From: Planctomyces sp.
Lineage (GTDB): Bacteria; Planctomycetota; Planctomycetia; Planctomycetales; Planctomycetaceae
Length of the DNA: 64,000 nucleotides
Direction: 5' to 3'
Assembly: GCA_019636235.1 (NCBI GenBank)
Contig: JAHBXW010000006.1
Location: 186,001 to 250,000 of the forward strand
Part shown: in pieces, positions 35,268-55,743 of the stretch
Layout: every line of letters starts with the position of its first letter
Position numbering within the stretch: the stretch's first letter is position 1
Notes under the pieces: model-generated
Told to the model about the DNA's origin: nothing
Database searches by the model: none
Seen by the model: only the letters and a program-made list of their open reading frames with translations
Program-made: the position numbers and the translations under genes

Positions 35268-37235
35268 TCAAGACGGATTGTCCTCGCCGCTGTTCACGGC
35301 AGGTTCCGTCGATTCCAGCGATCCTTCGACAGCGTCTCCCTCGGAACCTGCAGCCTCAGCCGCAGGCGCCTCCGTTGCGGGCGATTCATCCGTTGCCTCC
35401 GGCGTCCCATCGGGCAGCGGGTCATCTGTTGCGGGCGGGGCCGTCTCCTCTTCCGCGCCTGACTCCTGGAATCCCGGCAGATTCGACACCCCGTCCGGCA
35501 GGCCGCCCTCCGAGTCATCGGGGACAACCGGCTCGAGCAGATCTTCCGGCGCGACGCTGAGGTCCTCGAACACGTCCGCGGGAATCACGTAGTACCAGTC
35601 GGCGAACCGGTTGTTCAGCCGTTCGACGAGTTCCTGCCCCTTGCGGACCCGCTCGTCCCAGTCCTGTTTGCGGACGCGGTATTCGTCCAGCTCCTGTTCG
35701 TACGTCTTCAGCGCGGCCTCGTACTCAGCCTGCGGATCGGCTGCTGGCGGTTGCGCCGGCGTCACCGGAATGTCCGTTCCATCGGCCGGCGACTCGGTCG
35801 CTTCCCCTTCATTCGCGGGAGAATCGGCGGGAGCCTCCGCGGCATCCGCGTCCGATTGAGCCGCCGGGGCCTGGGACTCGACCGCAGTTTCGTCGCCCGC
35901 GTCGGCCGTCTCAGAGACCGTTTCAGGATCAGTCAGAGGCGCGTCCGCGGGCGGTCCGGCCAGGCTGGCGGCGCGGCCGTCGCCGATCGCTGACGTCCCC
36001 TCCGGCGGCGTCGGCTTCGCCGGCTCGACAGGCGCCTGGCCCAGCAGCCCCTCGTCGAACTGAACGGTGATGAAGACGTAACGATTCTCCTGCCGGTCGG
36101 GCGAGTCGCCGTCCGCCTTCGCGTCATCGGCCTCGGTCTTCGCATCGTCCGTTTCCCCAGCGGCGTCGGCGCCTTCCTCGGACGCACCGGCCTTGCCGCC
36201 GATCTCAATCTCGACGTCGCTGCCGGTGAAGACTTTGCCGAAGCGCAGGACGTACAGCGCGCCGTCGCTGGTGCCGGCGATGAAGTCGCCTTCGTTCGAG
36301 CGGAGCGCGCCCGTCGAATCGATGAAGTACCCCTTGCCCTGCATGTCGAGCTGATCGATCGGGCTGAGCCGCGCGTCGTCCTGCCCCTTGAGCTGCGCGC
36401 CGAGACCGGCCGGCTTGGGGCGCACGCCGACGATTTTCATGTTGCTCAACGACGACAGCATGGCGTTGACGACGCTGGTCTTCACCTTGCGGGACGGGTC
36501 GTCGAGCCCTTCCAGTTTCCAGTCGGCCGAGGCGGACTCCCGCTTCAGGACGCTGCGTTCGCCTTCGACAAGCACGCCCCGCCGGTCATCGATGCGGTAG
36601 CGGTCCAGCACCAGTTCCCGAAAGCTGCTGGACGTCGCCTCCAGCAGGTTGGGCGTGATCCAGTCGACGAACCTCGTGGACAGGTCGGGGCGGATTTCGG
36701 AGATGTAGACGCGATCGTCCCCCGGGCTGCGGACGTAATAGCGGTCCCCCTCGCCGGCCCTGTCGCCAATGATGTAGTCAGCCAGAACCTGGTCGCCGGC
36801 GGAGATCGTGATGCGGCTGCCAATGCCTTCAGTGCTGGTGTTGTCGCGGTTGAGAGGATCCAGCACTTTGAGCCGGGCGTGTGCATCGGCCGTCTGACTG
36901 GCGAGCTGCCCGCGGGTGACGCCGATCAGCGAGGCGGCGGTGCGGGCCAGGCGGTCCTTGCCGTCGGCGGGATAGTTGTGGTGCGAGGGGATCCGCCACA
37001 CGCCATCGCGGACGTCGACTGCGAAGGCATCGACGCGGGCCGTCTTGGCGTTGTAGGCGGCGACGCGCAGCGAGGTCGCCCGGGCCGGTTCGGTGAACTC
37101 CGGAAAGAACGGCTCGCCGACCTGGTCCGCAATCGCGGCGGCGCGCGGCTTCAGCGAATAGTGCGTCACCGCGGCGGCGCTCACCGAGCAGACTCCCGCC
37201 ACGAGAAACAGCAGCGTGCGATTCACCTGACTCAT
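35268..37235 (-). CDS. DUF4340 domain protein of a Gld-type ABC complex
   Basis: 655 residues. GAGGTGG lies just upstream, and its spacing favours the second of two adjacent ATGs (37235, MSQVNRTLLFLVAG) over 37238. One N-terminal membrane helix is followed by a DUF4340 fold: GVWRIPSHHNYPADGKDRLA, then DRYYVRSPGDDRVYISEIRPDLS, a second repeat around ADWKLEGLDDPSRKVKTSVV, and GALYVLRFGKVF. A strongly acidic insert and a long Ala/Pro/Glu/Asp-rich tail follow, with a helical piece in between (AEYEAALKTYEQELDEYRV). DUF4340 genes commonly follow GldG/ABC-2 genes. It is third in the minus-strand operon, 74 bases after the permease gene. Confidence 0.88.
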   Translation of the reverse strand: MSQVNRTLLFLVAGVCSVSAAAVTHYSLKPRAAAIADQVGEPFFPEFTEPARATSLRVAAYNAKTARVDAFAVDVRDGVWRIPSHHNYPADGKDRLARTAASLIGVTRGQLASQTADAHARLKVLDPLNRDNTSTEGIGSRITISAGDQVLADYIIGDRAGEGDRYYVRSPGDDRVYISEIRPDLSTRFVDWITPNLLEATSSSFRELVLDRYRIDDRRGVLVEGERSVLKRESASADWKLEGLDDPSRKVKTSVVNAMLSSLSNMKIVGVRPKPAGLGAQLKGQDDARLSPIDQLDMQGKGYFIDSTGALRSNEGDFIAGTSDGALYVLRFGKVFTGSDVEIEIGGKAGASEEGADAAGETDDAKTEADDAKADGDSPDRQENRYVFITVQFDEGLLGQAPVEPAKPTPPEGTSAIGDGRAASLAGPPADAPLTDPETVSETADAGDETAVESQAPAAQSDADAAEAPADSPANEGEATESPADGTDIPVTPAQPPAADPQAEYEAALKTYEQELDEYRVRKQDWDERVRKGQELVERLNNRFADWYYVIPADVFEDLSVAPEDLLEPVVPDDSEGGLPDGVSNLPGFQESGAEEETAPPATDDPLPDGTPEATDESPATEAPAAEAAGSEGDAVEGSLESTEPAVNSGEDNPS

Positions 37236-37309
37236 CATCCACCTCGATCGGCCCGCAACCATGTTCCCCCGCCGCGCCGCCCGCCGACTGGCGGCCGACG
37301 CGCACATCC

Positions 37310-39994
37310 TCAACGGCGAACCAGCCGTTCCGCCGCGATTCCCTGATCCTCGGTCAGCCACTTCCGGCCGAACATCAGCAGCCCCAGGAAAATCGCGGGC
37401 AGCCAGGGCAGCGTCCACGCCCAGGCGCGCACGCCCGCTTCAATCTCCCGGACGTTCTGTTCCATCTCGATCTTGGACCGCCGGATGGCCTCGTCCCGTT
37501 CCCGGTTGATGGCCTTTTCCTCCAGCGCCAGCTTGCGGCTCTCGGATTCCTGAAGCATCCGCAGTTGCGCTTCCAGCCGATTTCGATCCAGCGACTTGTC
37601 GTTCTTCAGCGCGTCCAACTGCTTGTCCACACGTGCCTGGGCCGCTTCGAGCGAGTCCTTCGCTTTGGACTCGGCCTCGCGCGCCTGCCCCTGCGCCGCT
37701 TCCACGAACCGCTGCTTCCGCTGATCGATCCGGGTCAGCGTCCGCTGGGCGGGGCGACGGTTGCGGAGCGCGACGTAGTCGGTGTTGCCCGCCAGCGTGT
37801 CGATGCAGTTGTAGACGAACAGAATGTTGTCCAGGGACAGCCCGGCCGTCTCCGACTCCCAGAACTGGTACATCTGGTTCGAGACCAGGTCGATGTCGGC
37901 GATGAAGATCGCGTTGATCGGCGACTTCTCCTCGGTCGAACGGATCTGCGCGGCAATCACGTGCTCGCGGCCGTCCGGAACCTGGGTCTCGATCACCCGC
38001 TCGTCAAACTCCCGCCCGCCTCCAAACGGCGACGCCGAGCTGCGGAACAGCTGCTCGAACTCCACGACGCCCGAACTTCCCTGCCGCGAACGCAGCAGCG
38101 GAGTGACTTCGAATTTCGAGTCCGGCTTCTCGCGGAACCGGCCTCCGAACGCCACCAGCACCTCCTGCAGGCCGTTCGTGATCGGCGAGTTCACGTTCAG
38201 GCCCCCTGACGACGACGCGCCGCCGCCCGCCGTCACAAACAGGAAGGTCTTCGGCACCACGCCCGCGATCTGCAGGTGCGGGTTCACGAAGTCGTACAGC
38301 ACCTCATGCACATTCCAGGTGACGCCCAGCGCCTCCATCAGCGACAGCGCTTCGCCGCCGTCGGCCTTCGGCGCTCCCGGCGCCCCGCCGCCGAACATCC
38401 CGCCCCCCTGGCTGGGCTTCTGCCGATTCGACGGCGCCAGCTCCAGGCCGTTCGGAATGTAGATCGGCGCCGGATCGTCAAAGATCAGCACCGGTCGGCC
38501 CCGCTTCACGTAGGCCACCAGATTGTTCATCTCCGGCTGAGTCAGCGAACTGGGCAGCACGGCGATCAACACGTCGCAGGCGTCGTCGGCGATCGGCGAG
38601 CCCGGGCTGATCTCCGTCACGGTGTATTGCTTGCGGAGCTCCTGAACCAGTCGCCACTCCGGCTGGCTGCGGAACGAACCCGCGTCGAAGCCCCCCATCA
38701 GCTTGGCATCGGTGGCCAGCACGCCGACAGTCGGGCGTTTCTCCCGGGACACCGTGCCGATTGCGCGGGTCAGTTCAAACTCGACGGGGGTCGTCTTTTC
38801 GAAATACGGAATCACGACGCGGTCCAGGCCGCTGGACACCGCCACGCCCAGGTAAATGTCGTCCCGCGTGAACCGACCGCCGCGCTCGGACACGACTTCG
38901 CGCCGCTGAATGCCGCCGTTGAGCGCCTCTTCCGCCTGCTCGCTGTAGGGCTCGGTGTCCACGATCCGAACATCCAGCCGCCGCCCGCCGAGCTTCTGAT
39001 ACTGCCGCAACAGCGCCAGGACGTCCTTGCGGACGCGCACGTAGTCCTCCGGCACGCGCGGCGACACATACGCCTGCAGCAGCACCGGCCGTTCCGGGTT
39101 CACCGCCGCGATCGCCTTGCGGGTCGCATCCGACAGCGTGTACAGCCGCTCGGACGTCAGGTCGGCCCGGCCGCCGATCATTGCCAGCACATAACTCGCG
39201 CTGACCACCACCAGCGCCAGGCACAACCCGCGGACCACGAACTGCCACGTCATCGTCGAGCCCGCCCGGCCGCTGGCCCAGTGCCGCCGCGTGATCATCA
39301 CCAGGTTCAGATACAGGAAGAACGCCGCGATCCCCAGGAAATAGGCCAGCCCTCCCGCGGGAACCAGCCCCGCTGCGAAGTCCCGGAGCTGGCCGCCCAC
39401 GCTCAGCGGCTCGCGAATGCCGAACAGCGTCGCCAGCGCCCATCCCGCAATCCGGTCCGCGAACACCGGAATCACCGAGAACAGCACGCCCAGGATGAAG
39501 GCCACCGTCACGCTCGACGTCAGCACCGACGCGAACATCCCCGCCGCGATCAGCGCCCCCCCCGCCAGCCAGTAGCCAAAGTACGTCGTCGCCAGCACCC
39601 GCCAGTCCGGCTGTCCCAACGCCGCCAGCACGAACGTCAATGTCCCTGAAAACAACAGCGCCACCGAGTACACCGTCAGCGCCGACAGATACTTGCCCAG
39701 CAGAATCTCGAAGTCCGAAGCCGGCAGCGTGAACAGCAACTCGTCCGTCCCCAGCTTCCGCTCATCGGCCCAGATCGACATCGTCACCGCCGGCACGATG
39801 AACAGCAGCAAATACGGGAACGCCGCAGTCAACTGGTCCAGATTGCACTGGTTCTCAATGAAGAACTGCTCGCTGAACGCCAGCACGCTGGCCGCCGCCA
39901 CGAACACCGCGATGAACAGAAATCCGAGCACTCCCGAAAAGTAGCTCGCAACGTTCCGTTTCCAGACGGCCGTAACCACATGAGCGCGAAACAT
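37310..39994 (-). CDS. ABC-2 permease fused to a GldG-like domain
   Basis: 894 residues. Residues 1-240 are an ABC-2 type permease with six membrane helices, including SGVLGFLFIAVFVAAASVL and the cytoplasmic IWADERKLGTDELLFTLP. A linking helix at about 250-270 leads into the GldG/IFT52-like part (about 290-600), with SERLYTLSDATRKAIAAVNP at its start and the Rossmann-like DVLIAVLPSSLTQPEMNNLV. A Gly-rich loop (GGGMFGGGAPGAPKADGG) interrupts it. A coiled coil at about 760-850 and a last helix (WTLPWLPAIFLGLLMF) close the protein. In Bacteroidetes GldF and GldG are separate parts of a gliding/secretion-linked transporter; here they are one chain, as in many planctomycetes. Confidence 0.93.
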   Translation of the reverse strand: MFRAHVVTAVWKRNVASYFSGVLGFLFIAVFVAAASVLAFSEQFFIENQCNLDQLTAAFPYLLLFIVPAVTMSIWADERKLGTDELLFTLPASDFEILLGKYLSALTVYSVALLFSGTLTFVLAALGQPDWRVLATTYFGYWLAGGALIAAGMFASVLTSSVTVAFILGVLFSVIPVFADRIAGWALATLFGIREPLSVGGQLRDFAAGLVPAGGLAYFLGIAAFFLYLNLVMITRRHWASGRAGSTMTWQFVVRGLCLALVVVSASYVLAMIGGRADLTSERLYTLSDATRKAIAAVNPERPVLLQAYVSPRVPEDYVRVRKDVLALLRQYQKLGGRRLDVRIVDTEPYSEQAEEALNGGIQRREVVSERGGRFTRDDIYLGVAVSSGLDRVVIPYFEKTTPVEFELTRAIGTVSREKRPTVGVLATDAKLMGGFDAGSFRSQPEWRLVQELRKQYTVTEISPGSPIADDACDVLIAVLPSSLTQPEMNNLVAYVKRGRPVLIFDDPAPIYIPNGLELAPSNRQKPSQGGGMFGGGAPGAPKADGGEALSLMEALGVTWNVHEVLYDFVNPHLQIAGVVPKTFLFVTAGGGASSSGGLNVNSPITNGLQEVLVAFGGRFREKPDSKFEVTPLLRSRQGSSGVVEFEQLFRSSASPFGGGREFDERVIETQVPDGREHVIAAQIRSTEEKSPINAIFIADIDLVSNQMYQFWESETAGLSLDNILFVYNCIDTLAGNTDYVALRNRRPAQRTLTRIDQRKQRFVEAAQGQAREAESKAKDSLEAAQARVDKQLDALKNDKSLDRNRLEAQLRMLQESESRKLALEEKAINRERDEAIRRSKIEMEQNVREIEAGVRAWAWTLPWLPAIFLGLLMFGRKWLTEDQGIAAERLVRR

Positions 39995-40061
39995 GGCGAT
40001 CCAGAGTCAGCAACAGGAACAAAACAGAAGACAGGGAACAACTCGACGCGCCGCGACGCCG

Positions 40062-40811
40062 CTACGCCGCCGCCACGGGGCTGCCGGTCAGCTCGCGGAA
40101 CCGCGACTCCAGGTCGGCCGCGCGGCCGGCCATCTCGTCGACCGTCCCGTCCAGGATCACCCGACCCTGATTGATCAGAACCACCCGGCTGCACACCGCC
40201 TTCACTTCCGTCAGGATGTGCGTCGACAGCAGAATTGTCTTCGTCCGGCTGAGACTGACGATCAACTCGCGGACCTGGAACGTCTGATTCGGATCGAGGC
40301 CGCTCGTCGGCTCGTCGAGAATCAGGACGTCGGGATCGTGCAGCAGCGCCTGGGCCATGCCCACCCGCTGCCGGTAGCCGCGGGACAGCTTGCCGATCTG
40401 CTTGCGCCAGACTTCCCCCAGCGAACACTTCTCCGCCACGAAGTCCAACCGGTCTTTCAGGAACGCCGGCGCCAGGCCCCGGGCAGCCCCGAAATACTTC
40501 AGCAGTCCCTGCGGCGTCATCTCGATGTACAGCGGACCGTTCTCCGGCAGGTAGCCCACCAGCCGCGCGGCTTCGATCCGGTCCTTGGACACGTCGTAGC
40601 CGCCGATCTTCGCCGTCCCCGCGCTCGGCGCGAGAAAGCCTGTCAGCAGCTTCATCGTCGTCGATTTGCCGGCGCCGTTCGGCCCCAGGAACGCGGCCAC
40701 CTGCCCCCGGGGCACCGCGAACGTCACGTCGCGCGTGGCGGCGAAATTGTCGTAGAACTTGCTGAGGCCGACCGCCTCGATCATCGGGCCGTGACTGACC
40801 GTCTCACTCAT
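40062..40811 (-). CDS. ABC transporter ATP-binding protein (GldA-like)
   Basis: 249 residues with a full ATPase set: Walker A GPNGAGKS at 43-50, Q-loop region LPENGPLY, signature LSRGYRQRVG, Walker B VLILDEPTSGLDP and the switch His in LLSTHIL. It matches the GldA/NatA type that pairs with ABC-2 permeases. The permease-GldG fusion starts 67 bases downstream on the same strand. Together with DUF4340 they should form one inner-membrane machine. ATG 40811 is preceded by AAGG. The substrate is unknown; the family is associated with gliding motility or envelope assembly. Confidence 0.94.
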   Translation of the reverse strand: MSETVSHGPMIEAVGLSKFYDNFAATRDVTFAVPRGQVAAFLGPNGAGKSTTMKLLTGFLAPSAGTAKIGGYDVSKDRIEAARLVGYLPENGPLYIEMTPQGLLKYFGAARGLAPAFLKDRLDFVAEKCSLGEVWRKQIGKLSRGYRQRVGMAQALLHDPDVLILDEPTSGLDPNQTFQVRELIVSLSRTKTILLSTHILTEVKAVCSRVVLINQGRVILDGTVDEMAGRAADLESRFRELTGSPVAAA

Positions 40812-42255: not shown

Positions 42256-43446
42256 ATGACAAACAGAGGCAGATTCTCCATGCACAAACGACGGATGGCC
42301 CGGCCGACTGCTCCCCGGCAGGGCTTCACCCTGATTGAGCTCCTGGTGGTGATCGCCATCATCGCGATCCTGGTGTCGCTGCTGCTCCCGGCGGTTCAAC
42401 AGGCCCGCGAGGCGGCCCGCCGCACGCAGTGCAAAAACAATCTCAAGCAGATCGGCCTCGCGGTCCACAACTTCGAAAGCACGTTCAAGAAGACGCCGCA
42501 CCCGGGCCAGTGCGACAGCACCGGCACGACGAACACGACGTACATGACGCAGTCGCCGTGCACCGTGATCCTGCCGTACATCGATCAGGCCAACGTCTAC
42601 AACCTGATGGACCACGCGCTCACCTACTCGCAGATGAGCACCGCTCCCTACAACTACACGATGACGAACATCCATCCGGATTCGCGAGGCGCGGTCTACA
42701 ACGACGCGAACTTCCCGAACACGGTGGCCGCCGCCCGGACCGAAATCCCGGCCTTCATCTGCCCGTCGACCCCCGGCGGCAACCGCAACCCGGACGGCTT
42801 CGGGCTGTGGGACTACATGTTCATCGCCACATCGGACATCGAAGACGGCGTGACGAACATCGGAACCGCGGCGCCCGATTCGCCGATCGGCACGCGGCCC
42901 TTCAGCGCCGCCCGCCGCGCCGCCGCCGCCATCGCCCCCTGCCTCTCCTGCGAGAAGAACTGGGGCTTCCGCAGCGTGACTGACGGCCTGACGAACACGA
43001 TTCTGTGCATCGAGGATGCCGGCCGCGGTCACCCCAGCGCGGGCATGCTGGCCTCGCTGTCCAACCGCCAATCGCCCGTTCCGGAACCGGCGGGGATCGC
43101 GTCGGTCGCCTGGTCGGGCGGCGCCAGCGGCGGGCGCCGGATGTACGCCTGGGCCGACCCGGACGCCGCCGCGAACGGCCTGTCCGGGCCCAGCAACGCC
43201 ATCGCCCCGGCGTCGCGAACGTCCCGCATCAACGCGTACGCCGCCCCTCCAGGAGGCCCGCCCGAGTGCCGCTGGACCGTCAACAACTGCGGTCCGAACG
43301 ACGAACCGTTCAGCTTCCATGTCGGCGGCTGCCACGCGCTGATGGCCGACGGGTCCGTGCACTTTCTGAACGAGAGCATGGACGCCCTGGTGCTGAAGTG
43401 GCTCGCTGGCTCGCAGGACGGCAATGTCGTCTCCAACGCGTTCTGA
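42256..43446 (+). CDS. DUF1559 prepilin-like protein
   Basis: 396 residues from ATG 42256; ATG 42280 (MHKRRMARP) is a real alternative with AGAGG upstream. The type IV prepilin signal is perfect: cleavage after Gly23 in [20 protein letters not shown], with Glu at +5. The DUF1559 body starts [20 protein letters not shown] and ends with [20 protein letters not shown]. Planctomycetes have dozens to hundreds of such genes; they are processed by prepilin peptidase and are thought to form surface pseudopili or matrix fibres. A small lipoprotein follows after 77 bases, the usual companion arrangement. Confidence 0.95.
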
Positions 43447-44160: not shown

Positions 44161-47037
44161 TCAGCGCGCGGCCGTCGCCGGAGACGCCTCGTCCGCTGCG
44201 GGCGGATCGAACTGGAACAGCAACTGGCCGTTCTTGCCGTCCCAGACGCGGACGACGCCGTCTTCTCCGCCGGCAATGACGAGGCGCTCATCGGGCGTGG
44301 CGGCGACGGAGTAGACATAATCGGTCGAGCCGCCGAACGTCCGCGTGTTCCCGCCGTTCCCGGCGTTGTGGAACTTGACGTTCGTATCGCCGCTGCCCGA
44401 CACCAGGATGTCGCTGAGGCCGATGTACTGCACGTCGGTGACCTGCTTGGAGTAGTTGCTGATCGTCCGACGCTGCTCGCCCGTTTCGACATTCCAGATC
44501 TTGATCGCGTTGTCGGCGCCGCAGCTCACAAGGCTGCTGCCGTCCTGCTTCCAGGCGACTCCCAGCACGTGGGCGGTGTGGCCTTCGCAGGCGCGCAGGA
44601 TCGCGCCCGTCGCCACATCGGTCACCTTGACGAACTTGTCGGCCGCGGACGTGGCCAGCCGCGCGCCGTCGCGAGAAAACGCCAGGCCGAACACCGTGTC
44701 GCTGTGCCGGTCCGGCAACGATCGGACGACCTGCCGCGTGGACAAATCCCACAGCAGCACTTCGCCGCTCCGGGAGGGATCGCCCCCGCCGGTGGCCAGC
44801 AGCGTGCCGTCCGGGCTGAAGGCCGCGCACAACACGCGGTCGACCATCGGCGACTCGCTGACATCGACCGAGTTGTCGGGCTTGCCGCCCAAAACGGCCG
44901 CCAGCCTCCAGTGCGGCCGGATGTCCCAGTGCACGAACGTCTGATCGTCCCCAGCGGAGAGCAGCGATGCGGCGCCGGTGAACGTCAGCGTGCGAACCGG
45001 CCCGGAATGGCCGGCCAGGGATTCCAGCCAGCGTCCGCTGCCCGCGTCCCAGAGATCGATGCGTCCTTCCTCGCCGGCCGTGGCGAGCGTCGCGCCATCG
45101 GGGGACAGGGCCGCAGCAGGCGTCGGGCGGGCGGACTGCTGCGACAGTTCGCGGGCCGCTTTCAGTTGTTCGTCCGTCGTCTGCACGCGTTCGGCGGCGG
45201 CGATTTTCGTTGTCTGCCGCATGTCGACGGCCTGCTTCGCGGCGGCGATCGACTGATTCGACAGGTCGATGGCGCGGTCGGCTGAGACGACGGCGTCCTG
45301 CGCCTTCTGCAGCGCATCACGTTCCATTTTGAGAGCCGCTTCCGCGTCCGTGACCTGCTTCTTCAGGCCCTCGTCCTCGGGATTGGCGGCCAGCGCCTCG
45401 CGCGCCTGATTCAGTTTCTCCTCGGCGTCCGCGACCTTCTTCCTGGGTTCCTCGAGCGCCTGAACGGCCTTCTCCCTGTTCTCGTTGGCCGTCTTCAGGG
45501 ACGCCTCGCGCTCCGCGACATCCTTCTCCGCCTGTTTGTGCGCTTCGTCCGCGTGTCCGGCCTGGGCCCTGGCGACCGCGAGATCGTCTTCCAGCCGTTT
45601 GGCCTTCCGGGCCGCCGCCGGATCGCCCGACACTTCCGCAAGCTGCTGGCCGTCCCGCTTCCAAACGCGGGCCTTCGCCGCGGGGCCTGCGGCCGCCGCG
45701 TGCCGTTCGCCATCCGCCGCGATCGCGACCGCCGTGGCCGGACCTTCCGCGGGGCCGGCGACTTCGAGCGCGCCGCTCTCCAGATTGATCCTGCGAATCT
45801 GGCCGTCCGCGCACCCCGTCACGACTTCCTGCGTTCCCGGACGCAACTGCAGGGACAGAATCTCGCCGCTGTGATGCCCGATTTCGCGGACCGGCTCGGG
45901 GCGTTCGGCGAGCGTCGTCTCGGGGATCGTCCACAGCCGCAGGTGTCCGTCCGCATGACCAGCGACGACCGACCGGCCGTCGGGCAGGAACGCCAGCGCG
46001 CGGACGGGCTGGCCGGTGGGCCACTGCACGCGGAGCGCGCCGTCGGCCGCGGTCCAGACGGCGATCGAGCCGTCCTCCGCGCCCAGCGCGACCGACTCGC
46101 CGTCGGGGGAATACGCCGCCGTCAGGACCGGCGCAGGGAACTGCAGCGTCGGCCCGGCATCGCCGCTCGCCAGACTCCACAGCCGCACCGTGTTGTTCGC
46201 GCAGACCAGCGCCGCGTGCAGGCCATCCGGACTGACGGCCGCGGACAGCACCGCCGCGCCGGGCGACTGCTGCAGCAGCCGCACATCGCGCTGCCGCTGC
46301 CACAGCTTCGCCTCGCGGAAGCCGGTGGAGACCAGCCAGTCGCCATCGGCGCTGAAATTCAGCGCATGGACAAAGTCGAGATGGGCGACGCCGGAATCGT
46401 ATAGCGGGGCGCCGTCGGCCTTGAGAACGGCGCGCAGCGCCGGGTCGGTCAGTTGCGCGACTTCCCTGCGGGTGTTGAGGTCGTAAATCGTCACGCGGTT
46501 GGCCCGGGCGACGGCGACGAATCGTTCTTCCGGCGACAGCGCGAGGCCATACACGGCTTTGATGCCGCTGGGTGCGGCTTGCCAGGCGACGCTGGCCGAC
46601 GCCGGGTTCCCCTGGCCGGGACGGGCGCCCCCCTCGATCCAGAGCCTGAAGACTCCCAGTTCGCGGGGCGTGAGGGGCAGCGCCGCGGCCTTGTTCGGCT
46701 GCGGCGGCATGACCGGTTCGTCGATCCGCGCGCAGACGCGGTACAGCAGGCTTTCGTCGGGATTGCCGGCGACGACCGCGGGGCCGCTGTCGCCTCCCTT
46801 CAGAATGGAGTCGACCGATTCAAGGATCAGGCTGCCTTCGCGCACGGTGCGGCTGTGGCAGGCGAGACACTTGGCCTCCAGGATCGGCGCGACGTCGAGG
46901 TGAAAATCGACGTCGCGGCCCAGGCCGGGGTCGGCGGGCGAGATCGCGTCATCGGCCGGCGCCGACGCGCCGAACAACATCGCCGCCAGTCCGATCGCCG
47001 CTCCGGCGGCCCACCTGCTGTTTTGGAACGTGCGCAT
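44161..47037 (-). CDS. Planctomycete cytochrome c / WD40 protein with internal coiled coil
   Basis: 958 residues, start ATG 47037 after GAGG with a 5-base spacer. A signal peptide (1 to about 28) is followed by a planctomycete-type cytochrome domain with CLACH at 57-61 and SGPAVVAGNPDESLLYRV. WD40 repeats come in two sets (about 160-460 and 640-950); several end in clear units such as ALSPDGATLATAGEEGRIDLWDAG-type text and HTAHVLGVAWKQDGSSLVSC. A long charged coiled coil (about 480-630) sits between them. The WD40 propeller probably binds partners outside the cytoplasm, with the haem domain giving redox contact. The next gene upstream on the same strand (70 bases) carries a related coiled coil. 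Confidence 0.9.
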   Translation of the reverse strand: MRTFQNSRWAAGAAIGLAAMLFGASAPADDAISPADPGLGRDVDFHLDVAPILEAKCLACHSRTVREGSLILESVDSILKGGDSGPAVVAGNPDESLLYRVCARIDEPVMPPQPNKAAALPLTPRELGVFRLWIEGGARPGQGNPASASVAWQAAPSGIKAVYGLALSPEERFVAVARANRVTIYDLNTRREVAQLTDPALRAVLKADGAPLYDSGVAHLDFVHALNFSADGDWLVSTGFREAKLWQRQRDVRLLQQSPGAAVLSAAVSPDGLHAALVCANNTVRLWSLASGDAGPTLQFPAPVLTAAYSPDGESVALGAEDGSIAVWTAADGALRVQWPTGQPVRALAFLPDGRSVVAGHADGHLRLWTIPETTLAERPEPVREIGHHSGEILSLQLRPGTQEVVTGCADGQIRRINLESGALEVAGPAEGPATAVAIAADGERHAAAAGPAAKARVWKRDGQQLAEVSGDPAAARKAKRLEDDLAVARAQAGHADEAHKQAEKDVAEREASLKTANENREKAVQALEEPRKKVADAEEKLNQAREALAANPEDEGLKKQVTDAEAALKMERDALQKAQDAVVSADRAIDLSNQSIAAAKQAVDMRQTTKIAAAERVQTTDEQLKAARELSQQSARPTPAAALSPDGATLATAGEEGRIDLWDAGSGRWLESLAGHSGPVRTLTFTGAASLLSAGDDQTFVHWDIRPHWRLAAVLGGKPDNSVDVSESPMVDRVLCAAFSPDGTLLATGGGDPSRSGEVLLWDLSTRQVVRSLPDRHSDTVFGLAFSRDGARLATSAADKFVKVTDVATGAILRACEGHTAHVLGVAWKQDGSSLVSCGADNAIKIWNVETGEQRRTISNYSKQVTDVQYIGLSDILVSGSGDTNVKFHNAGNGGNTRTFGGSTDYVYSVAATPDERLVIAGGEDGVVRVWDGKNGQLLFQFDPPAADEASPATAAR

Positions 47038-47107
47038 CAGTGCCTCTTCCAAAGTCCGTCTGTCCGTCAATGCGTCTGTCGGTCCGTGCCGCCTCCCGCG
47101 GAATCTC

Positions 47108-50100
47108 TCAGGGGGCGACCGTCAACGTGATGGGAATCTCGACGATCGCCTCTCCGTTCATCTCGCAGCGGGCACGGACGGCGATCAATTTGTGCTCGCC
47201 TTCCGGCGCATCGGCCGCCGCCGTGATGCGCAGCAAGCCTTCCTTTTCGTCCGCCGTGATGTCGACGGGCTCGGCCGACAATCCCGTCAATCCCGGCGGC
47301 AGCGCCAGCGACAGCGTCACCGGGCCGGCGAAACCGTTCTGTCGCGTCACGGTCGCCTTGACCTCCAGAGACTCGCCCCGCTTGATCGTTCCGCCGCTCG
47401 CCGACAGCTTCACCGGCGCCGGCTTGACGACGATGACAATCGGCGGACTGTTGGGATTGAAATTCAGCGGCTTGGGCTGCGACGCCTGATTGGCCTGGTT
47501 GAACCGTTCTTCCGCCTGAGCGCGGCTCTGCTCGGCGGCGGTCGCTTTGGCCTGTTCGGCCTGCTCAGCCTGTTCGGCGGCGATTCGCGCTTCCTCCGCG
47601 GCCTTGCGGGCCGCCTCCGCATCCGTCCGCACCTGTTCCGCCCTGCTCGCCGCGACGTCGGCATCCGCGACGGCCTGTGCGGCGGTCGCCAGCGCGGCGG
47701 CGGCCTCTTCGGCACGCTGGCGGGCGGCGGCGGCCGTTTCCTTCGCCGATGTCTCGGCCTGTTCAGCGGCGGCGAGGGCCTGCTGAAGTTCCGAGTTGCC
47801 GCTGTCGGCTTCCAGGGCCGTCTGTGCGGCGACGCGGGCCTCTTCGGCCAGACGCGCTGCCTCCGTTTCGGTTGCGGCCTGCGCCGCGGCGGCGTCGGCC
47901 GCTTCCTGCGCCTGCTGGTGCTGCACTGCGGCGCTGGCGGCGGCATCCTTCGCGGCGACCGCGGCCTGTTCCGCCTGAGTCAGCGCTTCGGCCGCCTGCG
48001 TCGCAGCCTGCGTCGCCTCGTTCTTGGTTTGAGTCGCCTTCTCGGCGGCGGCCTTCTCCATCTGGGCCGTCGCGGTCAGTTCGTCCAGCGTCGCCTTGGC
48101 CCGGTCCGTCCGCTCCGGGTTGCGACGATACTGCACCTGCCCCTGCCCGGTGAGCAGCAGCGCGTACGCATCGGGGGGCGAGTTCTCTTTCACGAACAGC
48201 GACAGCAGATAGTCCTGCTGATTCGGCTCGAACTTGAAGTTCTGACCGTCGATGTTCGCGTTGTTCGGACGGCCGTTGATGACGACCTGCACTTCGGCGT
48301 CGAAGCCGCCCCGCCGCTCGATGGTCACGGGGACGAACACATATCGCCCCTGATGGACCTCGATCGGCCGGACATCGTGCCGCAACTGATACAGCGCGGC
48401 CTCCTGCATCATGGCGACGGGAAACTCGCGGGACAGCCGCGTGAAGGCCGGCTGGTTGTTCTGCGTGCTCCAGACGATCGTCGCGAACCGCGCGGGGCGG
48501 TCCAGTCGCCGGGCGGCGGTGTCCGCGGCAGCGCGGGCCTCTTCCGCGGCCGTCCGCAACGGCGCGAGCCCCGCCTCCGCCTCCTGCAGAGCGGCCAGAG
48601 CTGTCTTTTGAGCTGCCTGAGCCGTCTCCAGCCGCTGTTGCGCGTCCGCGACCTGGTTCCGCAGCTCAGCGTTTTCCGGATCGGCGCCGCTCGTCTTGAG
48701 CGCCGCGGCCGTCTGCTCGACAGCCTGCTGCAGTTCGCTCGTCGCGCTTTCCGCGGCGGCGCGCTGGTTGGCGACGGGCTGCTGCGCCGTAGCGAGCGCT
48801 GCAGCAGCGGCCTGCGCCGCCTGATCAAGTCCGGCGTCGCGGAGCATGGCACGGCCGACGATGCGGATGCCGCTCAAATCGTCCGCCGTATCGGCGGTCG
48901 TTGTGAACACGAACGGCGCGCCCGGCTGGTTCGGTCCGATCACCGTGCCCAGGCACGACACGCCCTCGGGCAGTCCCTCGGCGGCGACCTCGATCGTCCC
49001 GTTGAATCCCTCCCGGCGGAAGGCCAGCACCTGCAAGGTGAACGTGTCCCCCTTGCGGAACGTCGGCGGCGCCGCCTGCCCCGGTCCCAGTTGAACCGGT
49101 GTGACGACCAACCGGAAATCGGGCTGTTCTTTCTGAATCGTCAGTCGGTAGACGCGGCTGGGATCGCCGGTGCTGGCGCCGTACCGGTCCTGCAGGATGA
49201 TGCGGCAGCGTCCGTCCGAGGGGGCCACGTATCGAAACGCGGCGTCGTCCGACTGCGAGTCGAATCCGTTGGGCAGCAGGTTGACGCCGATGTCGTCCTG
49301 CGCGGCCAGCCGGTTGACGGCCTGCTTGCCCTCGCCATCGACGGTCAGGTGCTCCACGATCAACAGAGGGTCGATGTCGCGTCCCAGCCGCTGCGCGAAG
49401 ACTTCAATCCACCAGGCGTCGCCCTGTTTGACGTCGAACTCATAGGCATCGATGTCGCCGCGCTCCTGGAACTGGCCCCCCAGGTCGCAGGGGACGGAAA
49501 TCGTCTGCGGGGCGGAGACGTCGTTCGGCTCGACCTCCACCGTCGCCGGCGTCGAACCGATCTGCAGCCGCACCGGATTGCTGACAGACGTGGGAGTCTG
49601 CAGCCGCCAGGTGAAGGCGTCGGTGCCGGCCTCGACCGGGGACACGCGGCCATCGACGTCGATCGCGCCGGACTCCGCGGGAATCGGGATCTGCACATCG
49701 AGCCGTTCCAGCCGCGCGGCGCCGAGCCGCTGTTCGGTCAGTTGGCCGCCGGGAAGGTTGAATCCGTAGAGCGCGACGGGCGCGGTCGTGCCGGCCGGCC
49801 CGGCCGGAGGCAGTGCGAAGGCGATCTGCGGGCCGTCATGCACCTCGAGCCGGTAGAAGTGATCCGCTCCGCCGCGATACGCCTGATCGAACACCTTGAC
49901 GACATACTGGCCCGCGACCGGGACATCGAACACCAGCGTCGCGTCCTGCGAGCGACCCGGACGGGCGTGCGCCAACTTGCGGCCCTCGGCGTTGAACACC
50001 TCCAGCACGGGACGCAGCCGCGAATCGATCCGCGCGGCAAGGCAGTCGATGACGATCCGCTGCCCCTCGCGGGCCTCGAACCGGTAGCAGTCGACATCGG

Positions 50101-50635
50101 TCGCCGGTTCGATGGCGGCATTCACCGTGCGGCCGACTTCGACGGCCGTCGCTTCGGCTGGCTGGTTATTGGGCTCGACTTCGAGCAGTTCGGGCCGGAC
50201 GCCGACGCTGAACATCCGCGGCGTGCTGCGTCCGAAATAGCCGATCGCATAGGCCTCGTACTGCCCGGGCGGGACATCCGGAGCGATCGTGACGATGAAG
50301 GCGTTGTTGGCGGCCTGCGGGGGCGGTCCGCCGGCGTTGCGCCGACCGCCGCCGCCAGGGCGACGTCGACGTCCCTCGCGATTGCCCGCGGGGGGCCGGG
50401 GGGCGTCCGCGGCAGGCGCGAGTTCAGCGCTGATCCCCGGATGGCTGAACTCCAGCTCGGCGATCTCCTCGAGGTCATCGCCACCCGTGATACGGACGTT
50501 GACCGTCGTGCCGGCCTGGCCGCCCGGCGGCGAGAGCGAACCGAGTCGGGTATATGGGAGCTGCGCGTCCGATCGGCTCGGAATCAGCGGCAGCAAAAGG
50601 CAGCAGCACAGCGCAACGCGTCGAAGGCGAGGCAT
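47108..50635 (-). CDS. Large secreted PPC-domain protein with two coiled-coil inserts
   Basis: 1175 residues with a signal peptide (MPRLRRVALCCCLLLPLIPSRSDAQ). A first beta domain contains a basic Gly/Arg loop (GRRRRPGGGGRRNAGGPP). Then come pre-peptidase C-terminal-like (PPC) domains: VEPNNQPAEATAVEVG with DVDCYRFEAREGQRIVID, and a second with VEPNDVSAPQTISVPCDL and DIDAYEFDVKQGDAWWIE. Ig-like beta domains follow. Two Ala/Glu/Gln-rich coiled coils interrupt them, about 600-700 and 830-1050. The last domain is another Ig-like sandwich. There is no enzyme motif. It is probably a surface or periplasmic adhesin/scaffold, first gene of a pair with the cytochrome/WD40 protein. Confidence 0.85.
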   Translation of the reverse strand: MPRLRRVALCCCLLLPLIPSRSDAQLPYTRLGSLSPPGGQAGTTVNVRITGGDDLEEIAELEFSHPGISAELAPAADAPRPPAGNREGRRRRPGGGGRRNAGGPPPQAANNAFIVTIAPDVPPGQYEAYAIGYFGRSTPRMFSVGVRPELLEVEPNNQPAEATAVEVGRTVNAAIEPATDVDCYRFEAREGQRIVIDCLAARIDSRLRPVLEVFNAEGRKLAHARPGRSQDATLVFDVPVAGQYVVKVFDQAYRGGADHFYRLEVHDGPQIAFALPPAGPAGTTAPVALYGFNLPGGQLTEQRLGAARLERLDVQIPIPAESGAIDVDGRVSPVEAGTDAFTWRLQTPTSVSNPVRLQIGSTPATVEVEPNDVSAPQTISVPCDLGGQFQERGDIDAYEFDVKQGDAWWIEVFAQRLGRDIDPLLIVEHLTVDGEGKQAVNRLAAQDDIGVNLLPNGFDSQSDDAAFRYVAPSDGRCRIILQDRYGASTGDPSRVYRLTIQKEQPDFRLVVTPVQLGPGQAAPPTFRKGDTFTLQVLAFRREGFNGTIEVAAEGLPEGVSCLGTVIGPNQPGAPFVFTTTADTADDLSGIRIVGRAMLRDAGLDQAAQAAAAALATAQQPVANQRAAAESATSELQQAVEQTAAALKTSGADPENAELRNQVADAQQRLETAQAAQKTALAALQEAEAGLAPLRTAAEEARAAADTAARRLDRPARFATIVWSTQNNQPAFTRLSREFPVAMMQEAALYQLRHDVRPIEVHQGRYVFVPVTIERRGGFDAEVQVVINGRPNNANIDGQNFKFEPNQQDYLLSLFVKENSPPDAYALLLTGQGQVQYRRNPERTDRAKATLDELTATAQMEKAAAEKATQTKNEATQAATQAAEALTQAEQAAVAAKDAAASAAVQHQQAQEAADAAAAQAATETEAARLAEEARVAAQTALEADSGNSELQQALAAAEQAETSAKETAAAARQRAEEAAAALATAAQAVADADVAASRAEQVRTDAEAARKAAEEARIAAEQAEQAEQAKATAAEQSRAQAEERFNQANQASQPKPLNFNPNSPPIVIVVKPAPVKLSASGGTIKRGESLEVKATVTRQNGFAGPVTLSLALPPGLTGLSAEPVDITADEKEGLLRITAAADAPEGEHKLIAVRARCEMNGEAIVEIPITLTVAP

Positions 50636-50982
50636 GATCGAACGTGGCTAAGGCTGTGGGAACGGTCGGGGGCGGTCGGACCGGGCAGCGGCCGCTCCGT
50701 CGCACCGCCGGTCAGGTGGGCAATTCTGGTGGGATGCCTTAAGTATGACCGAGTGTTGATACGAAACTCAATCTTCCGGGCAGGGAGAACTGGCGGCCAC
50801 GGCGCAGCGAACCCCACTTCGGCATCGAATCCGCCCGGCGCGCGCCTGTCGATTCAGGCGCCCCGCCGGTCGCTGAAAGACGTGGTTCAGCCTGCCCTGG
50901 ACCGATATACTGCGGCTTTGGCCGAGTGCCGCCTGAAGTCCGGCCATACCGCTTTCGCCACCAGGACCAGGGGCTGTCGAGC
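50636..50982. promoter_or_regulatory. Divergent promoter region between two giant genes
   Basis: 347 non-coding bases, locally less GC-rich near 50730-50775. For the minus gene, a possible -35 TTGAGT (50771-50766) and -10 CATACT (50747-50742) stand 18 bases apart, about 107 bases before the start. The match is only moderate. Nothing comparable was found for the plus gene. Confidence 0.25.
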
Positions 50983-53900
50983 ATGTCATCCGGGCGAACG
51001 TCGTGGCGCGACAGCCGGCTCCGTCAGCCGGAGCACGTCAGCGAACAGAAGCGCCGCCGAAAATGGGGCGTCACGCTGCTGTTGATCGCCTGCGTGGCGC
51101 TGTTTGTCTGGCTGGTGTTTCCGAAGTCGATTCCCGATCCGCCTCGGACGGTGCTGATCGCCGGCGTGATCCCGCGGACGAACTGGGCGGCGGTTGCCGA
51201 GCTCCCCTATCCCGAGCTGCGGCTGCCGGATGACCGCAAGTCGCTGGACTCCCGGCCGTTGCCCGGCAGCGAATCCAGCAGCCTGAGAAACATCGCCGAG
51301 GCGTTTCCGTCCCTCGGAGCGAACGATGATCCGCCGGCGGCGGCCATCGTCTTGCTCCGCGCCGAGGGCGTGTCCTGGGGCGGCCGGGCGTGGCTGCTGG
51401 GCAGCGACTTTTCCCGGCCTGACCGTGCCCCGGGCGGCGGGCTGGCCGGCGCGGCCGCCTTTCGCGACATCCTGCAGGGCGTCGCACAAAGCCCCGCGCA
51501 GACCAAACTGCTGATCTGCGATTACGGACGCACCAGCCATCTGGCGGACCTGGGCCTGTTCCGCAACGCCTTCGCCGAACTTGTCGAGCAGGACGTCAAA
51601 GCGCTCGACGCGCCCGGCAGCGACTCCGTGTTCGTGCTGCTGTCCCATGGCCCGCACGAACTCAGCCAGCTTCAGCACGCGCGGCGAGGCACCGTGTTCC
51701 TGAACGCGGTCACGGATGCGCTCGCCCGGCCCTGGGAGTTCCTGCCCAAGGGCGTGCAGCCCGGCGCGCCCGCACAACTGACGCTGCCCATGCTCCTGGC
51801 CGTCGTCGAGGGGCGCTGCGCCCTGCACTGCCGCGACGATCTGTCGCAAACGCCGCGGTTGCTGCAAGGGGGCAAGGGGCGCGTCGAGGCCCCGGATCTG
51901 ACCGATCGCGACCTGCTGCTGCTGGCGACGACGGCCCCGAAGCCCGAGCCCGCAGCCGCGGACGAGTCGGGCGAAACCCCCGGCGAGTCCACGCCGAAGG
52001 CGGCGGCCGCCAGGCCGCCGATGCCTGGCGACCGGCCACCCGTGATGGCGGCCGGACTGTTCCAACCGGGCCTCCCCCAGGCGTCGCCCATGGCGAGAAG
52101 CCCCCACGCGCCGCGGGGCGCACCGACGGATCGGCAGCTCGCTCAAGAATTGCCGAATCGAACGGAGCGAGCGGATCGCCCGCCTGCCGCGCCCGACGAC
52201 GCGGCCGCTCCGGGCGACAGCGAGCCGTCCGGCGGTCCGCCATCGACGACGCCCGCTTCATCAGCCAGGCCGCCGTCCGCGAATGGAGGCGAACCGAGAA
52301 TCCACGTCGGCGCGCCCGAGCTGTCGGTCGCACTTGACCCCGGAGCGCAGGCCTCGCTGGAAGCGTGGGAAGCGTACGAGTCGCTGCGCCGCGCGGACGG
52401 CGAGTTCTTCTGGTCTCCGGTCGATTTTTCGCCGACGGCCTATCGGGACGTGGGCCGCGAACTGTGCCGGTTGGACCTGCGGCTGTGGGCCGCGCGGGGC
52501 GCCGCCTCGCAGGAAAGCATCATCAGGGACCTGCAGGCGGCGGCGGAGTCGTTGCGCTCGCTGCGGGAGCGCATCCGCAGCGGAGCGGCGGACGTCGGCG
52601 GCTCGGCGGGCGACGTCACGCAGGAGCGCATTCGCAGTTCGCTGGTCCGTATGAATCAGGACTGGGGTCGGTTTCAGACGGCGGACGGCGCCAGCCGCGG
52701 CGCGCTCGAAACCGAGTTCGCGAAGCTGCCGGCAGCGGACTCGACCTGGGCGCGCGGTCAGGACGTCTTCGCGGCGCTGCCCGTGTGCGTGGAATGGTTC
52801 GAAGCGGTCAGTCTGACCCGCCGCAGCGACAGCGATTTTGCCGTCCTCAACAATCTCATCTCCCGCTGCGACGACGTCCGCTGGGATGTCTGGACGTCCT
52901 CGGAAGGCCTCACAGATGCCGAGCGGAAGGCGTTCGCCGAATCCGTCGATCGCTGCGTGCGGGAGCTGCAGGACCTGCGGCGACGGCTGCAGCAGGAAGC
53001 CCGGCAATTGCTGACGTCCCTGCCCGAAAACTCGCCCCCGGATGTCGTATCGTGCCGGACGGCCGAAGTGCTGCTGTCGACGCCGCTGCTCGAACCGCGG
53101 CAACGCGGCGAGCTGCTGAATCGGCTGCTGCGCAGCGAGCCGGAACCGGAAGAGGCGGCGCTGCCGTCCGGGGCCAGCCGGGCCGCGGCTTCGGATGCGT
53201 GGCGGGAGACCCGGGCGCGGGAGCGCGCTGAGATGCGGTCGCGGCTGATCTCGCTGGACACGGGGCTCGAGCCCCTGGCCGTTGGATCGCTGGAGGAGTT
53301 CGGCGACGCCTATCTGGGGCAACTCCGCGACGCGGCGGACGGACTGCGGAATCTCACTCCCTCGGAACGGCACATCGCGACGTTGTTGATCGACTTCCCA
53401 ACGGCGGAAGCCCAGTTTCCGGTCGTGTCGGTGCAGCGGCCGCCAGAACCGGAACGGCTGGAACTGACTCTCGTCGGGGAGGGCGATGTCATGCTGTCCC
53501 CTCCAGGGGGCGACCCCGAGCGGGCCTGGCGAACGTTGACGTTCCAGCTCGCTCGAAGCGGGCCCCTGCCGCGCGAGGTGCGCCTCGCCGTCGAGCCCTT
53601 TGCGGGCCTGGGCGCGGAACTCGAGGGGCACGACCCGGGCGATCCGCTGCGGCGGACGATCCCCGCGGAAGGCCCGGTCCCCGCGGAGTTCACCGTCCGG
53701 CTGCGGGCGAATCGCCTGGAGACGGTCTGGCGCGCGAAGGAACTGCGGGTCACCGCGCAGTGCGGCATATTGCGCCGCGAGCAGACCATCGGCGTGCATC
53801 TGCCGACCGCCAACACGCTGCGGCTGGCGACGCGGGATGCGGGCCGAATTCCCGAGTCGACCGGGCTCCGAGCTTATCCCAGCGGACGCACGCCCCTGGG

Positions 53901-55743
53901 GCTGGCCGTCATCAATGATGCGGGCCGGCCGCTGCGGCTGGAGCTGGTTCTGCTCCGCTCGCCCGAGCCGCTGTCGCGTCGTGAAACGCCCGAATGGAAC
54001 GCGCTCAGGGACCGTCTGATTCATCGCGAGACCGGCCGGCTGACAGCCGACGGACTGGACCTGCGTCTGCTGGCGGGCACGGCCGACTTGGCCGTCGGCG
54101 AGGACGAGCAGCCGTTGACGTTCGCGCCCCCCGTCGCCGAGGCGGCCCCGGACGCCGCCGCGGGAGGAGCCGCCGCGACGCTCCCCGCCGCGCTTGCTCC
54201 CACGGATGTCTCCCACGGACTCATCTGCGTCGTGCGCGAAGTCGACCCGCCCGCCGGCGTCGCGCCCGTGCTGCAGGTCTTCCGTCTGCCGATCCGGCCT
54301 CTGCATCCCGCGGAATATCTCGAGGCCCGGGCCAGCTACGACCCCGCGAAGCAGCGCATCGCAGTGCACGTGACGCGCAAACATCCCGAGGACCGGCGGC
54401 CGATCAAACTGCAGATCAGCAATGCGCAGGAGTTCCGCGGCGCGGTGGCCAGCGAGGGTGATCTCGAGGACAAATCTCCCGACTTGTACGTCTCCGTGCC
54501 GGAGGACGGACTGCGTCGACGGGTGGAGGTCGGCGTCGACGGCTACCCCCGGGCGTTTGTCTTCCAGATGGAATGCCGCGGCGAGCAGACCCGAGAGTAC
54601 GATCGCGGCCATTTCGACATCCGCATCCGGCGGCTGAGCGTCGAGGGCCGCCCCTGGGCGTTCGAAGCGCAGGGCGGACGCTGGTTGCCAGTGAAGAACC
54701 CGCGCCTGCCGATGGGCGAGCCGGTGGCCGATGAACGAATGCTGGTCTCTCCACAGGGGCTGGAGTTCGCGCCGTTTCGGGCGCCGGTCGACGTGCCGCT
54801 GATCGTGGACCTGATGGCGGACGTGCCTGCCGCGGTCGAGGCGGAAATTGTCCTCGGCGGCCCGGGGTTGAACGATCAGACATTCCCGACCGACCGCCAG
54901 CGGACGATCGAGCTGAGCCTCGCGGGAGAGCAGCTCGCGCTGAACTGCGCGCTTTCCGACTGGGCGCCGCGGATCACACTGGTTGGCCGGGTGAACCACG
55001 AAACGGAGCTGGTGGCGACGCTGAAGTTCATCGACGCCGACCGCCAGTTGCAGGAGCGGACGTTCTCCGCGGCGGTGCGGTTGGACGGCGAGGCGCCGGT
55101 GATCGACGGGACCTGGCTGTCGGACGCGGACGGCCGGCGGCAACTGTCGCAGACGCCCGCGGAGTCGGAGGCCCCGGTTTTCGCCTGGGCGGAAGTGCAC
55201 GATCCAGGGCCCGGCGATGCGGGGATCGCAGAGGTTCAGTTTCAGATCGGCGAGCTGCCGCCAATCGCGGGAGAGCTGCGCCGGCGGCCGGCCGGATCGG
55301 TCAGCGACCGGCAATTGTGGGCCGTGAACGTCCGGCCGTTGCTGAAGGACCTGCCTGCGGGTCGGATGCAGCCGGTGGAGGTGACGGCGACCGATCGGCT
55401 GGGCCGGACGGCCGATCCGCGGGGCTTCCGATTCCTGCTGGCGGCCCCGGCGAAGCCAGCCATGGCGGAGACGCCGGCGGCGGGGGGCGTGATCCGCGGG
55501 AAGATGACATTCAATTCTCGACCGATGAAACTTTCCGTCGAGTTGCAGGGCGTCAATCCGCCGCGAAAGGTGAAAGCGGACAGCAGCGGCGCCTTCGAGT
55601 TCCGCGACGTGCCCCCCGGCACGTACACGTTGAAAGTCAAAGAGGCCGCGACCGGATTCACCTACACCGGCGAACTGGCTGGAGTGAAACCCGCGGCTGC
55701 CGGAGAAGCGCCCCAGGAGCACGAAATCGAACTCATGCGGTAG
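50983..55743 (+). CDS. Giant membrane-anchored protein of unknown function with C-terminal carboxypeptidase-regulatory-like domain
   Basis: 1586 residues from ATG 50983 (MSSGRTSWRD). One membrane helix at about 28-46 leaves a huge outer part. Residues about 55-320 look like an alpha/beta domain with AAIVLLRAEGVSWGGRAWLL and TKLLICDYGRTSHLADLGLF, then SVFVLLSHGPHELSQL; the strand-then-HG order recalls caspase-like (C14) folds, but the Cys position reads CDYG and is uncertain. A Pro/Ala-rich linker (about 340-440), a helical region and several beta domains follow. The end (GVIRGKMTFNSRPMKLSVEL, then FEFRDVPPGTYTLKV) is a carboxypeptidase-regulatory-like domain. I do not recognise the family as a whole. 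Confidence 0.75.
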   Translation: MSSGRTSWRDSRLRQPEHVSEQKRRRKWGVTLLLIACVALFVWLVFPKSIPDPPRTVLIAGVIPRTNWAAVAELPYPELRLPDDRKSLDSRPLPGSESSSLRNIAEAFPSLGANDDPPAAAIVLLRAEGVSWGGRAWLLGSDFSRPDRAPGGGLAGAAAFRDILQGVAQSPAQTKLLICDYGRTSHLADLGLFRNAFAELVEQDVKALDAPGSDSVFVLLSHGPHELSQLQHARRGTVFLNAVTDALARPWEFLPKGVQPGAPAQLTLPMLLAVVEGRCALHCRDDLSQTPRLLQGGKGRVEAPDLTDRDLLLLATTAPKPEPAAADESGETPGESTPKAAAARPPMPGDRPPVMAAGLFQPGLPQASPMARSPHAPRGAPTDRQLAQELPNRTERADRPPAAPDDAAAPGDSEPSGGPPSTTPASSARPPSANGGEPRIHVGAPELSVALDPGAQASLEAWEAYESLRRADGEFFWSPVDFSPTAYRDVGRELCRLDLRLWAARGAASQESIIRDLQAAAESLRSLRERIRSGAADVGGSAGDVTQERIRSSLVRMNQDWGRFQTADGASRGALETEFAKLPAADSTWARGQDVFAALPVCVEWFEAVSLTRRSDSDFAVLNNLISRCDDVRWDVWTSSEGLTDAERKAFAESVDRCVRELQDLRRRLQQEARQLLTSLPENSPPDVVSCRTAEVLLSTPLLEPRQRGELLNRLLRSEPEPEEAALPSGASRAAASDAWRETRARERAEMRSRLISLDTGLEPLAVGSLEEFGDAYLGQLRDAADGLRNLTPSERHIATLLIDFPTAEAQFPVVSVQRPPEPERLELTLVGEGDVMLSPPGGDPERAWRTLTFQLARSGPLPREVRLAVEPFAGLGAELEGHDPGDPLRRTIPAEGPVPAEFTVRLRANRLETVWRAKELRVTAQCGILRREQTIGVHLPTANTLRLATRDAGRIPESTGLRAYPSGRTPLGLAVINDAGRPLRLELVLLRSPEPLSRRETPEWNALRDRLIHRETGRLTADGLDLRLLAGTADLAVGEDEQPLTFAPPVAEAAPDAAAGGAAATLPAALAPTDVSHGLICVVREVDPPAGVAPVLQVFRLPIRPLHPAEYLEARASYDPAKQRIAVHVTRKHPEDRRPIKLQISNAQEFRGAVASEGDLEDKSPDLYVSVPEDGLRRRVEVGVDGYPRAFVFQMECRGEQTREYDRGHFDIRIRRLSVEGRPWAFEAQGGRWLPVKNPRLPMGEPVADERMLVSPQGLEFAPFRAPVDVPLIVDLMADVPAAVEAEIVLGGPGLNDQTFPTDRQRTIELSLAGEQLALNCALSDWAPRITLVGRVNHETELVATLKFIDADRQLQERTFSAAVRLDGEAPVIDGTWLSDADGRRQLSQTPAESEAPVFAWAEVHDPGPGDAGIAEVQFQIGELPPIAGELRRRPAGSVSDRQLWAVNVRPLLKDLPAGRMQPVEVTATDRLGRTADPRGFRFLLAAPAKPAMAETPAAGGVIRGKMTFNSRPMKLSVELQGVNPPRKVKADSSGAFEFRDVPPGTYTLKVKEAATGFTYTGELAGVKPAAAGEAPQEHEIELMR

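Follow-up and report, generated by a model that had tools for sequence, protein, structure and literature searches.

Two adjacent genes of a planctomycete encode proteins of different folds that both contain long coiled coils with a similar short signature, which raises the question of whether these inserts share an origin and whether the proteins that carry them act together. The genes lie in a stretch of 64,000 nucleotides (hereafter the window, to which all positions refer unless a locus is named) from Planctomyces sp. (GenBank assembly GCA_019636235.1, contig JAHBXW010000006.1). Both are on the minus strand: the gene of a protein with a PPC domain (PPC protein; 47108..50635, 1175 amino acids (aa)) comes first and is followed, after 37 bases, by the gene of a protein that combines a PSCyt1 haem domain with WD40 repeats (PSCyt1-WD40 protein; 44161..47070, 969 aa counted from TTG, with the ATG at residue 12, position 47037, being the likelier start as judged by eye). 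The N-termini of both proteins appear signal-like, again judged by eye, and the proteins are referred to here as exported-looking; an earlier description of the locus (the sequence-only reading) called them giant, which overstates their size. The related arms of the two neighbours suggest copying between the genes and a possible joint function of both products at the cell envelope.

The PSCyt1-WD40 protein is arranged as a signal-like N-terminus, a c-type haem domain, a first propeller, a coiled-coil hairpin and a second propeller, and the PPC protein as a signal-like N-terminus and beta-rich domains with two coiled-coil hairpins. In the AlphaFold2 models, the hairpin between the two propellers (aa 484-645; 45136..45621, minus strand, as are all features of the pair) comprises helices 484-562 and 567-645; hairpin 1 of the PPC protein (aa 601-707; 48515..48835) comprises helices 601-651 and 656-707, and hairpin 2 (aa 840-1051; 47483..48118) helices 840-943 and 948-1051. 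The signature motifs, NPEDEGLKKQVTDAEAAL (aa 563-580; 45331..45384), DPENAELRNQVADAQQRL (aa 652-669; 48629..48682) and DSGNSELQQALAAAEQAE (aa 944-961; 47753..47806), start at aa 563, 652 and 944, respectively, inside long coiled coils of two adjacent co-oriented genes, as the sequence-only reading had it, and in each hairpin the predicted turn (563-566, 652-655 and 944-947) corresponds to residues 1-4 of its motif. Because the turns coincide with the motif starts and the two helices of each insert are nearly equal in length (79+79 residues in the WD40 hairpin, 51+52 in PPC hairpin 1, 104+104 in PPC hairpin 2), each insert is predicted to form an antiparallel coiled-coil hairpin, with the shared signature as its predicted tip, that is, the turn and the start of the return helix. 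The hairpins are located at domain borders, either between two beta-propellers or between beta-rich domains, and therefore can protrude as arms while leaving the fold unbroken. The models (17 aligned sequences, mean predicted local distance difference test (pLDDT) 84.0 and predicted template modelling score (pTM) 0.72 for the WD40 protein; 14 aligned sequences, mean pLDDT 82.5 and pTM 0.69 for the PPC protein) were read for helix limits, with no claim made on the pose of the arms relative to the other domains. Among solved structures, the insert profile gave weak matches only, to seven sequences (best E-value 0.024); thus, the inserts have no close solved relative by sequence.

The sequence-only reading had proposed that the inserts descend from a common ancestor and had named an alignment of hidden Markov models as the way to examine this. 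Alignment with hhalign of profiles built from 20 WD40 inserts, 12 PPC-1 inserts and at most 25 PPC-2 inserts gave scores of 78.9 (WD40 vs PPC 1), 67.8 (WD40 vs PPC 2) and 61.3 (PPC 1 vs PPC 2), compared to maxima of 50.9, 36.6 and 32.1 (means of 26.5, 22.3 and 21.1) for heptad-block shuffles, none of which (0/200 in each case) reached the real score. Reversed profiles scored 7.5-9.4, and two sets of unrelated hairpins from the genomes of relatives, SerRS (16 sequences) and PspA-like proteins (13 sequences), scored 10.1-13.4 against the three insert profiles. After removal of the motif on both sides, the scores were 43.2 and 47.4 vs shuffle maxima of 33.7 and 35.8 (0/150 each); when only the flanks were shuffled, around an intact motif, again 0 of 150 shuffles reached the real scores, the margin being small for WD40 vs PPC 2 (67.8 vs a maximum of 66.4). 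When six loci that hint at copying at the DNA level were left out, the scores were still 74.9, 65.4 and 59.4. The similarity between the window sequences themselves is weak (in Smith-Waterman comparisons, the real score was reached by 22 of 1000 heptad-block shuffles for WD40 vs PPC 1, 18 for PPC 1 vs PPC 2 and 426 for WD40 vs PPC 2), so that the case for relatedness rests on the relatives. Given that the profiles align beyond the shuffled, motif-cut and natural-hairpin controls, the proposed common descent of the three inserts is well supported. Ala/Glu composition alone does not explain the inserts of the host family.

A profile of 12 WD40 inserts yielded 129 matches in 83 of the 101 genomes of the host family (E-value 0.01), 102 of which correspond to the WD40 insert of the PSCyt1-WD40 protein; sorting by position or, on contigs without a PPC gene, by checking the encoded protein placed 21 of the remaining 27 within the PPC gene and six elsewhere. 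These six include three other WD40 proteins (one with PSCyt1), a protein that is similar to the window protein over the first 167 residues only, a 1886-aa protein without a Pfam match, and one match that was not confirmed on re-scan. The other WD40 proteins are those at 2866-5250 of L147 (the one with PSCyt1), 2336-4324 of L144 and 2742-4760 of L267; the hairpin match is C-terminal in the first and N-terminal in the other two. Across the phylum, the insert profile has matches in 28 of 392 genomes (E-value 0.001), 23 of these belonging to the host family. Nine of the 101 host-family genomes lack a PPC match (E-value 1e-30), and eight of the nine also lack an insert-profile match.

Presence and length of the inserts were surveyed as the gap between flanking-domain matches in 78 host-family gene pairs (88 pairs minus 8 from other families and 2 paralogous ones; several come from one genus and are not independent). 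PPC insert 2 is present in all 78 pairs (at least 90 aa), and PPC insert 1 is present in 53 and absent in 25. The WD40 gap was measurable in 72 pairs. The fraction of helix breakers and aromatic residues exceeds 0.06 in 11/72 WD40 gaps, 4/53 PPC inserts 1 and 0/78 PPC inserts 2; two of the 11 WD40 gaps (L159 and L181) were misplaced, as the hairpin profile matches elsewhere in these proteins. This profile matches the WD40 protein in 75 of the 78 pairs, the others being one diverged protein (L194, gap of 197) and two truncated ones.

At the DNA level, inserts of the two genes of one genome are most similar in L090 (77% over 464 bases) and L092 (77% over 476 bases), and in L154, L150, L184, L083, L153 and L149, the inserts are 69-78% identical over 240-500 bases. 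In 15 of 74 pairs, the insert DNA match is above 20 heptad-block shuffles of the pair's own DNA; the pair in the window shows no DNA-level match above shuffles or above cross-genome matches. Cross-genome matches can be equally high among close relatives (for example, L184 with L092) and, therefore, several pairs may go back to a single earlier event. Copying of inserts between the two genes in some lineages is well supported. In four loci (L083, L090, L092 and L154), the WD40 inserts, at 252-351 aa, exceed the usual length by a factor of about 1.5 to 2 and share DNA segments with the PPC gene, suggesting growth through copying. In L072, L089, L102 and L149 (positions 1-185), apparent DNA matches arose from overlap between open reading frame calls and were set aside.

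The domains that carry the arms are identifiable in both proteins. The PSCyt1 domain (PF07635; 46699..46869) scores 54.1 bits vs a cut-off of 22 and includes a CXXCH motif (CLACH, aa 68-72; 46855-46869), the putative haem site; residues C68, C71, H72 and M121 are invariant among 17 aligned orthologues. The WD40 repeats score 215.1 bits vs the Pfam cut-off of 27, and the propeller fold is indicated by two strand runs in the AlphaFold2 model and by matches in the PDB to multi-propeller proteins. The PPC domain (PF04151, aa 180-249; 49889..50098) scores 30.3 bits vs a cut-off of 25.9 in a scan at an E-value of 0.1, and Foldseek matches to domains of ColG and ColH point to the collagen-binding domains of collagenases; unlike PPC-domain collagenases, the protein in the window shows no peptidase family in the Pfam scan and has two coiled-coil hairpins between its beta-rich domains.

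Combinations of PSCyt and PSD domains, with WD40 among the associated domains, are described in excerpts of PMC5615132, where a role of these systems in carbohydrate use is considered. The pair resembles these planctomycete-specific cytochrome systems in the fusion of a PSCyt1 haem domain to WD40 repeats (PMC5615132, in the same excerpts) and in the PSCyt2-PSD1 gene that adjoins it in most relatives examined; it differs in the coiled-coil arms and the PPC partner, which those excerpts do not mention, and in that no such gene adjoins the pair in the window. A long helical coiled-coil hairpin on a beta-domain protein also recalls periplasmic efflux adaptors of the AcrA/EmrA type, as a works-like analogy only; the remaining domains and the gene neighbours are different, and tip docking would be carried over by analogy. 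The Pfam scan at an E-value of 0.1 found no AcrA/HlyD-type adaptor domains in the PPC protein; for the WD40 protein it covered the best 25 of 50 families. No description of these hairpins was found in the open-access literature searched, including excerpts of PMC8567305 and PMC5615132.

The association of the two genes is conserved. Among 95 loci, 86 were selected by a PPC match with a WD40 homologue on the same strand of the same locus, and in 84 of these 86, the WD40 gene lies behind the PPC gene, in the same direction and within 300 bases of it; the other nine comprise the unlinked pair of G070, two loci with the WD40 gene on the opposite strand (L138 and L139) and six with no WD40 gene on the stretch examined, some of which end at a contig end. 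In G070 (L140 and L141), a single contig of 8.4 Mb carries the two genes at a distance of about 1.8 Mb, with hairpin matches in both. A PSCyt2-PSD1 homologue (domains confirmed by Pfam in 4 examples) is encoded directly upstream of the PPC gene in 71 of the 95 loci; of the 24 loci without such a call, 10 have less than 1.5 kb of upstream sequence, and in L091 the rule missed a homologue that overlaps the PPC call. The tip ranks with the best-conserved parts of the arm: the mean column entropy is 1.37 vs 2.13 in 46 WD40 inserts (2 of 147 alignment windows lower) and 1.95 vs 2.21 in 33 PPC-1 inserts (2 of 91 lower). Because the gene pair is conserved and the tip entropy is low, a shared envelope complex of the two proteins, which the sequence-only reading had suggested as an extracellular or periplasmic complex with a haem, is a reasonable but unproven inference.

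The explanation that we favour, with moderate confidence, is that one ancestral hairpin was copied between the adjacent genes, which would have given rise to the three hairpins, with further copying in some lineages, and that both proteins serve the cell envelope as partner subunits whose arms dock by their tips. The partners would act together with the PSCyt2-PSD1 protein, whose gene adjoins the pair in most relatives; the arms might dock, by analogy, either mutually or onto a shared partner, and such docking would place the haem domain in the complex. A more specific version, in which the arm tips recognise each other, so that the haem protein and the beta-rich protein zip into an envelope scaffold around the PSCyt2-PSD1 protein and the copying of tips keeps the match, appears unlikely. 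Tip matching was examined in 24 pairs, after omission of second, paralogous pairs (L095 and L097), pairs with copied segments (L149, L150 and L154), L177, which is close to L176, and pairs with unusual insert lengths; tips were more alike within than between genomes (permutation p = 0.00005), with p = 0.054 for the flanks. Genes for planctomycete-specific cytochromes are numerous (36 PSCyt1 matches in the 5.6 Mb host genome), and the shared arm provides a concrete partner hypothesis with short, testable elements. With its presence in two proteins of different fold, its retention in all measurable pairs of one family and its copying from one gene to the other in some lineages, this arm also documents a structural module being exchanged by adjacent genes.

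Several observations weigh against the favoured explanation. In only 5 of the 74 pairs is the same-genome DNA match above both the pair's own shuffles and every cross-genome match. Ten of the 101 host-family genomes have a PPC match and no insert-profile match at an E-value of 0.01; among these, the WD40 inserts are long, diverged or otherwise placed in the pairs of G010, G024, G029, G088 and G110, and truncated in G087. Gene pairs with the insert in one member only, named by the sequence-only reading as evidence against its proposal, were not found within the host family, bar the two truncated and one diverged WD40 proteins, but do occur outside it: none of the eight WD40 proteins from pairs of other families matches the hairpin profile, one PPC protein from these families (L094) carries an insert that looks coiled-coil-like by eye, and in two genomes of another family, G485 and G434, the hairpin match is present in the WD40 protein but no such insert is seen in the nearest PPC homologue, which is encoded on the other strand. 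Thus, the inserts are separable. The pair in the window has no adjacent PSCyt2-PSD1 gene, its upstream neighbour being a divergent 1605-aa gene without those domains. The lengths of the inserts do not covary (Spearman coefficients of -0.04 for PPC 1 and -0.13 for PPC 2 vs WD40, n = 72). Some pairs in the tip test (L071, L073 and L164) are also alike in tip DNA, and in 12 tree-independent quartets, tip matching was not significant (6 for, 3 against and 3 ties, p = 0.08); given this result and the p value for the flanks, we do not claim coevolution.

A tentative possibility is that the arms bind a common third partner, such as the cell wall, the surface layer or a membrane protein, so that the two proteins have a shared target and do not bind each other; the related tips in both proteins, the independence of the insert lengths and the absence of PPC insert 1 from 25 of the 78 pairs are compatible with such a target, and this alternative fits the same facts as the favoured explanation, although no third partner was found, no search aimed at one having been made. 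Homologous hairpins without any partnership, whereby repetitive coiled-coil DNA recombines between neighbours and the arms are independent spacers of proteins that do not touch, appear somewhat unlikely: the DNA-level copying, the lack of length covariation, the quartet result and the one-sided cases outside the host family are consistent with spacers, but the unlinked pair of G070 keeps both hairpin matches, eight of the nine host-family genomes without a PPC match also lack an insert-profile match, and the conservation of the tips exceeds what a spacer needs. Convergence, by which Ala-rich antiparallel hairpins of whatever origin would become alike through the recurrence of heptads and, under the N-cap rule, of Asn/Asp-Pro-Glu helix N-caps, is highly unlikely: it would accommodate the weak similarity of the window's own sequences and the small margin for WD40 vs PPC 2 with the motif kept, but the block shuffles, the motif-cut profiles and the two natural hairpin families largely refute it across the whole family, and the DNA-level similarity in relatives also argues against it.

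The surroundings of the pair include several further genes. In many loci of relatives (for example, L071, L079 and L083), the WD40 gene is followed by a recurrent gene of about 427 aa, and two examples match UxaC, glucuronate isomerase, over the cut-off. In the window, a 1351-aa open frame (47030-51085, plus strand) runs antisense to the PPC gene and is probably an artefact of high GC content. The divergent 1605-aa protein upstream of the pair (50926-55743, plus strand) shows weak Pfam matches at an E-value of 0.1 in its C-terminal part only, the best being CarboxypepD_reg, below the cut-off. Facing the 3' end of the pair is the gene of a DUF1559 protein with an N-methylation motif (42256-43446, plus strand). 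Farther away, a row of genes on the minus strand (35268-40811) encodes a DUF4340 protein, an ABC_transp_aux/DUF7088 protein with weak matches to ABC-2 membrane proteins, and an ABC ATPase, and resembles a gliding-type ABC transporter set.

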